In this document: in pieces, positions 28,280 to 41,770 of the stretch | How the letters are laid out: each line of letters opens with the position of its first letter | How positions within the stretch are numbered: the first letter of the stretch is position 1 | Origin: Hymenobacter taeanensis | Lineage (GTDB): Bacteria > Bacteroidota > Bacteroidia > Cytophagales > Hymenobacteraceae | Length of the DNA: 64,000 nucleotides | Direction: 5' to 3' | NCBI RefSeq assembly: GCF_013137895.1 | Contig: NZ_CP053538.1 | Coordinates: 1,425,501 to 1,489,500 of the forward strand | The notes under the pieces: generated by a model | Databases searched by the model: none | Told to the model about the DNA's origin: nothing | What the model saw: the letters and a program-made list of their open reading frames with translations, nothing else | Made by a program: the position numbers and the translations under genes

Positions 28280-28378
28280 ACCCCACCCCCGTCCCCTCCC
28301 CTCCGGGAGAGGGGTGCCAAATGACTTCTATGCCAGAACGCACCCCTCTCCCGGAGGGGAGGGGACGGGGGTGGGGTG
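28280..28378. repeat. 99-bp REPIN-like hairpin, family B
   Basis: Two 39-bp arms, 28280-28318 and 28340-28378, are inverted copies (CCCCACCCCCGTCCCC... and ...GGGGACGGGGGTGGGG), each with its own small stem (CCCTCTCC/GGAGAGGG type). About 21 bp separate them. It has no T-run, so it is a poor terminator. It lies in the gap upstream of the M16 operon and downstream of the GH1 gene. Confidence 0.85.
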
Positions 28379-36519: not shown

Positions 36520-40230
<3,711 letters not shown>

Positions 40231-40776
40231 AGGCGCCCCACCCCCTAGCCCCCTCTCCGAAAAAGGAGAGGGGGAGCCTGACGATTACAGACCGTGCTAA
40301 GCTTTCTACTTGACTTATGTCCCAGGACAAGATTTTCACCGCAGACAAAAGGCTGTACGGTAAGTTGAATTTGAAAGGTAGGAGTCGCGCCATGCGGCAT
40401 GAGCCCACGAAAGCAGAGGAAACACGATGGCAAGCAGTACGGGGTGGGCAGCTTGGCACCAAATTCCGACGCCAGCACAGTATTGACCGCTACATCATTG
40501 ATTTTGTCAGCCTTAGTTCTAAACTGATTGTGGAGGTTGATGGAGAGATCCACAACCAGCCTGACCAGCAAGACTATGATACTGGCCGCTCCGCCCTGTT
40601 ACAGGAACTCGGCTATAGAATTCTACGCTTCTCCAACAACCAAGTGCTGCACGAACCAGACCAGGTGATAGCAACTATTAAATCTGCTCTGTAACCCAAC
40701 AACTGCCCCATCACCTAAAAGTCCGTTCGGCTCCCCCTCTCCTTTTTCGGAGAGGGGGCCGGGGGGTGGGGCGCCT
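40231..40776. mobile_element. REP-bounded cassette, family B, enclosing a DUF559 nuclease gene
   Basis: The arms at 40231-40279 and 40728-40776 are 49-bp inverted copies differing at about four positions. Each begins GGCGCCCCACCCCC at its outer end and contains its own hairpin CCCCTCTCC-loop-GGAGAGGGG. The left arm starts at the base after the metH stop, and the right arm ends 37 bp before the metF ATG. The unit thus splits the metH-metF pair without touching either coding region. Related arms without cargo occur at 28280-28378 and, degraded, at 8849-8889. Arms and positions are seen; mobility is inference. Confidence 0.7.
40317..40694 (+). CDS. DUF559 (Vsr-like, PD-(D/E)xK fold) endonuclease-domain protein
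   Basis: This 125-residue protein has the DUF559 signature: MRHEPTKAEETRW, LGTKFRRQHSI, YIIDFVSLSSKLIVEVDGEIH and LGYRILRFSN. The Asp in IDF and the Glu-x-Asp in VEVDGE correspond to the metal-binding residues of Vsr-like nucleases. Biochemical function in this family is largely untested. The gene lies between inverted repeats and seems to be the cargo of that element. It is somewhat more AT-rich than metH and metF. It may nick or cut the repeat DNA itself (speculation). Confidence 0.85.
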   Translation: MSQDKIFTADKRLYGKLNLKGRSRAMRHEPTKAEETRWQAVRGGQLGTKFRRQHSIDRYIIDFVSLSSKLIVEVDGEIHNQPDQQDYDTGRSALLQELGYRILRFSNNQVLHEPDQVIATIKSAL

Positions 40777-40813: not shown

Positions 40814-41770
40814 ATGAAAGTAACCGAACACCTGACCCGCGCCGACGGCAAGACGCTGTTTTCCTTCGAGGTATTGCCCCCGAAAAAGGGCGAGAACATC
40901 CAGAACCTGTTCTCGAATATTGAGCCCCTGATGGAGTTCAAGCCGCCGTTTATCGACGTGACGTATCACCGCGAGGAGTACGTGTACCGCCAGCATCCCA
41001 ACGGGTTTCTGGAGAAGAAAACCGTGCGCAAGCGCCCCGGCACGGTAGGCATCTGCGCGGCCATCAAGAACCGCTTCGATGTGGACACGGTGCCTCACCT
41101 GATTTGTGGGGGCTTCTCGAAGGAGGAAACCGAAAACGCGCTCATCGACCTGCACTTTCTCGGCATTGATAACGTGCTGGCCCTGCGCGGCGACCCAATT
41201 AAAAGTGAAGGTCACTTCAAGCCGGACCCCGACGGGCACGCTTACGCCGCCGACCTCATTGGGCAGGTAGCTAACCTCAACAAGGGCGAGTACCTGGATG
41301 AGGAGCAGGACGACACCTGGGCCACCAACTTCTGCATTGGCACGGCCGGCTACCCCGAGAAGCACTTTGAGTCGCCGAACTACGGGGCCGATTTGCGCTA
41401 CCTTAAGCACAAGGTAGACCGCGGCGCGGAGTACATCGTTACTCAGATGTTCTTCGACAACGAGCAGTTCTTCAACTTCGAGAAGCGCTGCCGCAACGCG
41501 GGCATTACCGTGCCCATTATTCCTGGCCTTAAACCCCTGACCACCAAGAGCCAGCTTACTATGCTGCCCCGTTCCTTCTACCTCAACCTCCCTGAGGAAC
41601 TAGCTGATGCCGTCCAATTAGCCCCTGACAACGCGGCGGCCCGCGAAATCGGGATTGAGTGGTGCATCAACCAGAGCAAGGAGCTGATGGCTCATGGCGT
41701 ACCCTGCCTACACTATTATAGCATGGGCAAGTCGGAGAGCATCCGGCGGGTAGCGGCGGCGCTGTTTTAA
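40814..41770 (+). CDS. metF: methylenetetrahydrofolate reductase
   Basis: This FAD enzyme makes the methyltetrahydrofolate used by MetH. The protein has 318 residues from ATG 40814 (MKVTEHLTRADGK); a GTG at 40766 would start inside the repeat arm and is rejected. Motifs: FSFEVLPPKKGE (catalytic Glu), FIDVTYHREEY, NVLALRGDP and YIVTQMFFDNEQFF. It follows metH on the same strand and was probably once directly adjacent; the DUF559 cassette now lies between them. If no transcript ends in the cassette, the SAM riboswitch may still control metF. Confidence 0.96.
   Translation: MKVTEHLTRADGKTLFSFEVLPPKKGENIQNLFSNIEPLMEFKPPFIDVTYHREEYVYRQHPNGFLEKKTVRKRPGTVGICAAIKNRFDVDTVPHLICGGFSKEETENALIDLHFLGIDNVLALRGDPIKSEGHFKPDPDGHAYAADLIGQVANLNKGEYLDEEQDDTWATNFCIGTAGYPEKHFESPNYGADLRYLKHKVDRGAEYIVTQMFFDNEQFFNFEKRCRNAGITVPIIPGLKPLTTKSQLTMLPRSFYLNLPEELADAVQLAPDNAAAREIGIEWCINQSKELMAHGVPCLHYYSMGKSESIRRVAAALF

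Follow-up and report, generated by a model that had tools for sequence, protein, structure and literature searches.

Repetitive extragenic palindromes (REPs) lie mostly downstream of coding regions, intragenic copies have also been reported, and relatives of the Y1_Tnp family are flanked by REPs or by inverted repeats; for the REPs that carry a CGTC tag, the same source reports that an enzyme is lacking (PMC3733652). The REP-associated tyrosine transposases (RAYTs) are mostly inherited in place (PMC8049555). In Caulobacter, the protein VsrA contains a DUF559 domain, and a DNA damage response of cells that lack a cytosine methylase depends on VsrA (PMC12907096). Here we describe, in a 64,000-nucleotide stretch of the Hymenobacter taeanensis genome (contig NZ_CP053538.1, positions 1,425,501 to 1,489,500; below, the window), a DUF559 nuclease gene that is enclosed by two inverted REP-like arms and lodged between the genes metH and metF. 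This locus probably represents a palindrome-boxed nuclease element, that is, a REP-associated DUF559 nuclease of the Vsr/I-Bth0305I fold together with inverted REP-like arms, which resembles the RAYT/REPIN systems but employs a different enzyme. A search for DUF559 together with "inverted repeat" found no open-access full text, subscription papers being outside its scope. The features of the window are as follows:

40231-40283, plus strand: left arm, a type A REP-like palindrome with an outer tag GGCGCCCCACCCCC, a hairpin and an inner AGCCTGACG
40249-40274: hairpin of the left arm, CCCCCTCTCC GAAAAA GGAGAGGGGG
40317-40694, plus strand: DUF559 (PF04480) Vsr/homing-type nuclease gene, a complete open reading frame (ORF) of 125 amino acids
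40724-40776, minus strand: right arm, an inverted copy of the left arm
40733-40758: hairpin of the right arm, stem CCCCCTCTCC/GGAGAGGGGG
36520-40230, plus strand: metH, the upstream host gene
40814-41770, plus strand: metF, the downstream host gene
28280-28378: gene-less inverted pair of related architecture, with hairpins at 28293-28314 and 28343-28364

Each arm is 53 nucleotides long, and the two are complementary at 49 of 53 positions (92%), with a spacing of 440 nucleotides; an earlier note on this DNA had recognized the arms and their hairpins correctly but had given the arms as 49-bp sequences with about four differences. Its placement of the arms agrees with the coordinates: the TAG stop codon of metH ends at 40230, the left arm starts at the next base, and 37 bp separate the end of the right arm from the ATG of metF at 40814. 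The unit is accordingly intergenic, following the metH stop codon and out of frame with metH. The gene between the arms is complete, as had been noted, and is the sole plus-strand ORF of at least 80 amino acids there; its product matches PF04480 over residues 19-124 at 114.3 bits (gathering score 20.6), and its G+C content is 0.497, compared with 0.613 for metH and 0.574 for the window. The pair at 28 kb, previously described as the same arms, is indeed an inverted, cargo-less pair of the same architecture, with an outer CCCCACCCCC tag and a GC hairpin, but it shares little sequence with the arms at 40 kb and is only a distant relative of them. Across the 4.88-Mb genome, the hairpin pattern CCCCTCTCC-N2-16-GGAGAGGGG occurs in 31 places as against none for a reversed-pattern control, which excludes chance. 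The same genome contains two small DUF559 genes, both boxed, and one long ORF includes a third match to the domain, a weak one of 23 bits; a search with the Y1_Tnp profile gave no Y1/RAYT match in it.

The unit resembles the RAYT/REPIN systems (REPtrons) in that a short, single-domain enzyme gene is flanked by palindromes, gene-less pairs of the matching subtype are dispersed in the genome, and the enzyme is vertically inherited at low copy number (PMC8049555; PMC3733652). It differs from them in that the enzyme is a Vsr/homing-type nuclease and not an HUH tyrosine enzyme, and the arms bear C-rich tags (CACCCC) and no GTAG, the window arm ending in GGCGCCCCACCCCC and AGCCTGACG; lacking both the HUH enzyme and the GTAG tag, the unit is not a member of the RAYT/REPIN family. 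The CGTC REPs combine their tag with a stem of 8-9 bp that starts with AT pairs and a loop of 4-5 nucleotides (PMC3733652), and some DUF559 arms have a CGTC-like inner end; membership in that class was rejected for the window arms, which have a 10-bp stem that does not begin with AT pairs and a loop of 6 nucleotides. Rickettsia palindromic elements are translated in frame within protein-coding genes (PMC10969869; PMC3733652), a likeness that holds for relatives of the window unit in leuS, metH, addB-like, purQ-like and recQ-like genes and not for the intergenic window copy; these elements are about 150 bp long and, in the accessible parts of the sources, are described without a nuclease gene, whereas the DUF559 insert can carry a nuclease. 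From I-Bth0305I the DUF559 units differ in that the insert reads through as protein and is boxed by palindromes, and homing by these units would be a putative activity. As for VsrA, the accessible part of the Caulobacter report does not mention palindromes (PMC12907096).

The link between DUF559 genes and REP-like arms, which the earlier note had proposed from this one locus as RAYT-like logic with another enzyme, proved to be systematic, specific and wide. A total of 90 DUF559 matches were collected from 59 genomes of the genus and the order, and the 71 that scored at least 94.6 bits were analyzed; four matches of 68-94 bits (G003, G022, G040, G041) and 15 weaker ones were set aside. Boxing was scored as the inverted match between the two flanks, with a threshold of 18, for the 69 loci with sufficient flanks (all but L050 and L066). 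By this measure, 56 of the 69 loci are boxed. The rule is strong within Hymenobacter, where 53/58 loci pass, and weaker in the remainder of the order, where 3/11 do. The median score of these 69 loci is 32, compared with a best score of 15 on dinucleotide-shuffled flanks (201 shuffles). The threshold was reached by none of these shuffles, by 2 of 30 HNH loci (for the most part a single conserved gene, similar in length) and by 19 of 69 combinations of flanks swapped between loci. It was also reached by 17 of 30 Y1_Tnp loci (this set and the HNH set comprise the 30 best-match loci each); because REPs or inverted repeats have been reported on the flanks of Y1_Tnp relatives, the boxing test detects what it should. 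DUF559 genes without arms, which the earlier note had regarded as a point against the association, are few in the genus: only 5/58 loci fall below the threshold, and four of these have worn or unequal remnants, on both sides in L048, L062 and L087 and as a worn right arm in L061, the fifth, L101, having no left arm and a complete gene-less pair downstream. Eight of the 11 loci in the rest of the order fail the test. Of the 58 genus DUF559 loci, 44 have a type A or B hairpin at a distance of at most 500 bp, and 33 have the same type on both sides; none of the genus control loci has such a hairpin at that distance (0/17 Y1, 0/14 HNH).

These counts bear on the possibility that RAYT (Y1) transposases mobilize the arms in trans, with DUF559 a passenger captured once, which we consider very improbable. 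Y1 matches are frequent in the genus, Y1 loci are often boxed by inverted repeats themselves, and other species have palindromes of a different sequence at the same metH-metF site, all of which would suit mobilization in trans; yet the window genome holds its 31 hairpins with no Y1 match, the Y1 loci of the genus are not near type A or B hairpins, and each DUF559 lineage has its own arm subtype. Four Y1 loci had their flanks inspected, and among these L124 and L127 bear a CCCAGGGCTTCAGCCCTGGG-type palindrome of their own, and the palindromes of L125 are of a further kind. Because L124 and L127 have a different palindrome and none of the 17 Y1 loci is near type A or B, two palindrome systems seem to coexist, and two parallel REP systems in one genus allow a direct comparison. 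The CCCAGGGCT-type palindrome flanks L124 and L127 and is also seen as a gene-less pair in the metH-metF gap of G002.

The types of arms generally correlate with the lineages of the enzyme. In the phylogenetic tree of the DUF559 proteins (few columns, 25 open forks; L066, L103 and L104 excluded), a clade with support 100/99 includes 20 genus members, all with type B/C arms, which consist of the hairpin CCCCTCC/GGAGGGG with the tag GGGGTGG inside; the remaining genus loci have type A arms, with the tag outside, or none that is clear. The loop of the type-B hairpin varies by DUF559 lineage, and the loops of dispersed arms match those of the resident DUF559 unit in 198 of 254 arms, the commonest class being the right one in 8 of 10 genomes (permutation p ~1e-4, with loop classes drawn up after the lists were seen). 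Genomes with a type-B gene have more type-B hairpins than those without (p 1.6e-5), and the cross pairs, type-A hairpin with type-B gene and the reverse, show no association (p 0.30 and 0.62). Loop counts and gene-presence tests were compiled by hand, with G022 and G025 unscored, G011 and G031 scored in part, and L066 outside the per-genome tests.

Copies of the gene that are close in sequence stay in place. All 36 pairs of DUF559 genes with more than 85% identity are located at the same site, that is, share neighbors, and 13 of the 37 pairs at 75-85% identity do so; shared neighbors were chained, so that nearby sites may be joined, and sites 1 and 5 hold two lineages each. L066 is involved in four of the 36 pairs, and L040 and L066 of G017 may be a single locus, L066 being on a 3-kb contig with the same left neighbor. 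These pairs imply that the gene-bearing unit is mostly vertical and moves rarely; mobility and vertical inheritance both occur, at different speeds, the motion of the gene being slow and not free jumping. A simple multicopy transposon was rejected on the same evidence. The occupants of two shared sites do not form one clade by the approximately unbiased (AU) test (metH 3' site, 7 loci, AU p 0.02; purQ 3' site, 11 loci in the tree, AU p 0.01), and the 53 rows at 11 shared sites require at least 15 site changes. The mobility suggested in the earlier note is thus borne out in part: several lineages per site and empty and gene-less versions of the metH-metF gap speak for it, but the close copies are all in place.

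The metH-metF gap was compared by eye in 25 genomes of the genus (L136-L160), and its content varies, in contrast to the same insertion in all relatives that vertical inheritance alone had been expected to leave. The gap contains a boxed DUF559 gene in G000, G001, G004, G009 and G016, and a gene-less pair, of type A in G013 and of type B/C in G003, G010, G017 and G018; the empty junctions sought among sister genomes exist in G015 and G023, which have no unit at all. The remaining genomes contain other sequence, mostly unrelated palindromes. In most species this short gap holds different inverted palindromes, and it appears to be a site of fast turnover.

Turnover of gene-less arms was followed at 15 sites of G016, which were sought in G027. 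Three of these (L196, L200, L206) retain the arms and two (L208, L209) are nearly closed in G027; for L204, the two flanks could not both be placed. The remaining nine sites contain different sequence, which in seven cases looks by eye like another inverted repeat. Between these two close genomes, the interior between the arms is inverted in L200 relative to L302 (alignment score 51 inverted vs 7 direct), a sign of recombination between the arms. The target duplication that the earlier note had proposed to look for did not appear in convincing form at any of the 15 sites; L209 allows a TAGCT repeat, but TAGCT is also part of the arm, and the other sites are kept, replaced, unplaced or unalignable at the ends. 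An ordinary cut-and-paste insertion sequence, or a miniature inverted-repeat transposable element with terminal inverted repeats, would account for inverted ends, an internal gene and gene-less copies, but such an origin is most improbable given the lack of a clear target duplication, the presence of DUF559 as the only plus-strand ORF of at least 80 amino acids between the arms, the count of at most 6 DUF559 matches per genome with no recent copies at new sites, and the arms themselves, which bear their own hairpins and occur alone.

In addition to intergenic positions, many of the units are located within genes. By reading of the sequences, the frame of DUF559 continues into a conserved gene with no intervening stop codon in 30 of the 71 loci, and the arms read as peptides such as PHPPAPSPKEERGSQ or PSPLGEGGRGGE. 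The hosts are the 3' end of a purQ-like gene (12 loci, one perhaps a duplicate), the 3' end of metH (four: G001, G004, G016, G027), the 5' end of a recQ-like gene (five), the inside of an addB-like gene (two), leuS (two), a UvrD-like helicase (one) and genes of DNA methylase type (four), where the labels purQ, recQ, addB, hsdR, hsdM and leuS are derived from Pfam domains and sequence. A Pfam scan covered 20 of the fused ORFs, the others being read by eye, and host domains were found in the same ORF as DUF559 in 11/11 tested fusions of the genus and order and in 9/9 from named genomes; the latter genomes show in-frame inserts at a different position of leuS (before VFTTRPDT), within metH, and in genes of the hsdR, hsdM and MmeI types. 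At one addB-like site, always in frame, G002 and G009 have a DUF559 unit, a pair of arms with no gene is present in G016, and G027 has a repeat that is unrelated. The insertions in leuS and metH are harder to explain by domain shuffling than those in restriction-modification genes.

I-Bth0305I, the homing endonuclease to which the DUF559 protein is compared here, is a member of the EDxHD family. The modeled fold of the window protein is closest to solved DUF559, I-Bth0305I and Vsr structures, and in the model the protein has the catalytic fold in common with homing endonucleases of the I-Bth0305I kind. Residues T31, E34, W38, R51, R52, Q53, D62, E73, D75 and H79 are among the invariant columns of 26 sequences, and the same core residues except R52 are invariant or nearly so across 36. 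The DUF559 gene evolves under purifying selection, the ratio of nonsynonymous to synonymous rates (dN/dS) being 0.03-0.21 in the 13 pairs, out of 15, that gave an estimate; together with the pairs at the same site, these values indicate that the gene is selectively kept and mostly inherited in place. A role as a defense system was considered and rejected, no PADLOC model matching the window protein at E<=1. Carriage by viruses was sought as well: four pattern matches were found in viral contigs, none of which proved to be a relative by tblastn, with a one-protein query that reaches close relatives only.

Selection and largely vertical descent are also compatible with a DUF559 protein that serves the host in repair or as an epigenetic guard, Vsr-like as proposed for VsrA, and merely sits between ordinary REP-like palindromes brought to the 3' ends of genes by another activity. 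The VsrA-dependent damage response (PMC12907096) makes a methylation-linked repair role a live rival, and the usual location of REPs downstream of coding regions (PMC3733652) also speaks for it. We nevertheless consider a host-serving nuclease unlikely: the hairpins do not lie near HNH or Y1 genes in these genomes, the arms match the enzyme lineage and box the gene on both sides in inverted orientation, the pattern recurs in several phyla, and the arms and in-frame units are left unexplained.

The spread beyond the genus was assessed in a single-protein scan of genome contigs, which yielded 80 loci with groups assigned from record titles; six of these (L224, L250, L262, L264, L276, L282) were excluded from the boxing analysis because of short or masked flanks, and the ungapped score used here misses short or gapped arms. 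In Hymenobacter, 16/17 scorable loci are boxed, with some overlap with the genus set. Outside Hymenobacter, 26 of 57 are boxed at 18 and 32 of 57 at 16 or more, compared with 0/285 for shuffles. At 18, the boxed loci comprise 9/36 in other Bacteroidota, 7/9 in Cyanobacteria, 3/3 in Alphaproteobacteria, 1/1 in Gammaproteobacteria, 1/2 in Spirochaetes, and 5/6 in candidate phyla and others. Eight stretches, picked for variety from 25 of 39 plasmid-collection records, were also read. Inverted C-rich hairpins flank the gene on both sides in Sphingomonas, Deinococcus and Azospirillum lipoferum (the right one imperfect in the latter); in Neisseria, both sides have a hairpin, but the two point the same way and the left is worn; A. 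brasilense, Sinorhizobium and Photobacterium have them on one side only; and in Picosynechococcus no stem of at least 8 bp was found, C-rich repeats being seen by eye only. In the Sphingomonas stretch (L319), the boxed DUF559 gene lies between sufB and sufC.

In favor of a palindrome-boxed nuclease element are the boxing, its specificity for DUF559, the match of arm subtypes, purifying selection, shared sites, in-frame placement, the fold and the conserved acidic residues; the in-frame insertion in genes, the match between arm type and enzyme lineage and the spread across phyla go beyond the earlier note. A number of observations weigh against this interpretation. Boxing is partial beyond the genus, both in the rest of the order and in the wider scan; the HNH set is a narrow control; and the swapped flanks match as often as they do because the arms are shared families. 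The link between type-A hairpins and type-A genes is weak (p 0.04), the permutation and rank tests ignore relatedness among genomes, the loop classes are post hoc, and the dispersed arms of G026 and G007 most often have a loop other than that of the resident. In G024, 38 type-A hairpins occur with no DUF559 match, for which recent loss is a possible explanation, and G005, G006, G010 and G033 have 3-5 such hairpins each, again with no match. The close gene pairs invariably share a site, no convincing target duplication was found, neither cleavage nor excision nor new insertion was observed, and DUF559 within restriction-modification genes could reflect ordinary domain fusion or shuffling.

If the element functions as proposed, the nuclease gene would be a mostly vertical, functionally constrained copy between two arms, and the gene-less arm pairs of the same subtype would be its non-autonomous partners scattered in the genome. 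The nuclease might recognize the arms as hairpin, cruciform or duplex and nick or cut at the arms or at homologous target or empty alleles, and host repair might then carry copies of the arms, or in rare cases of the entire unit, to new 3' ends or to permissive in-frame sites; such cutting and repair-driven copying is suggested by the fold, together with the cognate arms and the positions in frame. An in-frame unit would be hard to remove because it is now part of a needed gene. It is possible, although we advance this only tentatively, that these units constitute a distinct class of mobile DNA, in which a homing-type nuclease of the Vsr fold copies its own arms, and on rare occasions its own gene, to the ends of genes and to permissive in-frame positions within essential genes of several bacterial phyla. 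DUF559, a domain of unknown function, thereby gains a testable role, as a candidate enzyme for another large, non-RAYT family of palindromes that is found beside its cognate repeats in several phyla and whose nuclease gene resides within the reading frames of leuS, metH and further conserved genes. If the units do form such a class, the DUF559 nuclease would supply the enzyme so far lacking for a large part of the bacterial palindromic repeats that have no RAYT.

Two other arrangements of type-A hairpins were seen in G016. In L198 (G016:C2:193871-194222), six of them form an array, the last five being spaced 63 nucleotides, and in L205 (G016:C7:35610-36285), a small gene lies between two type-A arms that are direct and not inverted copies of each other.
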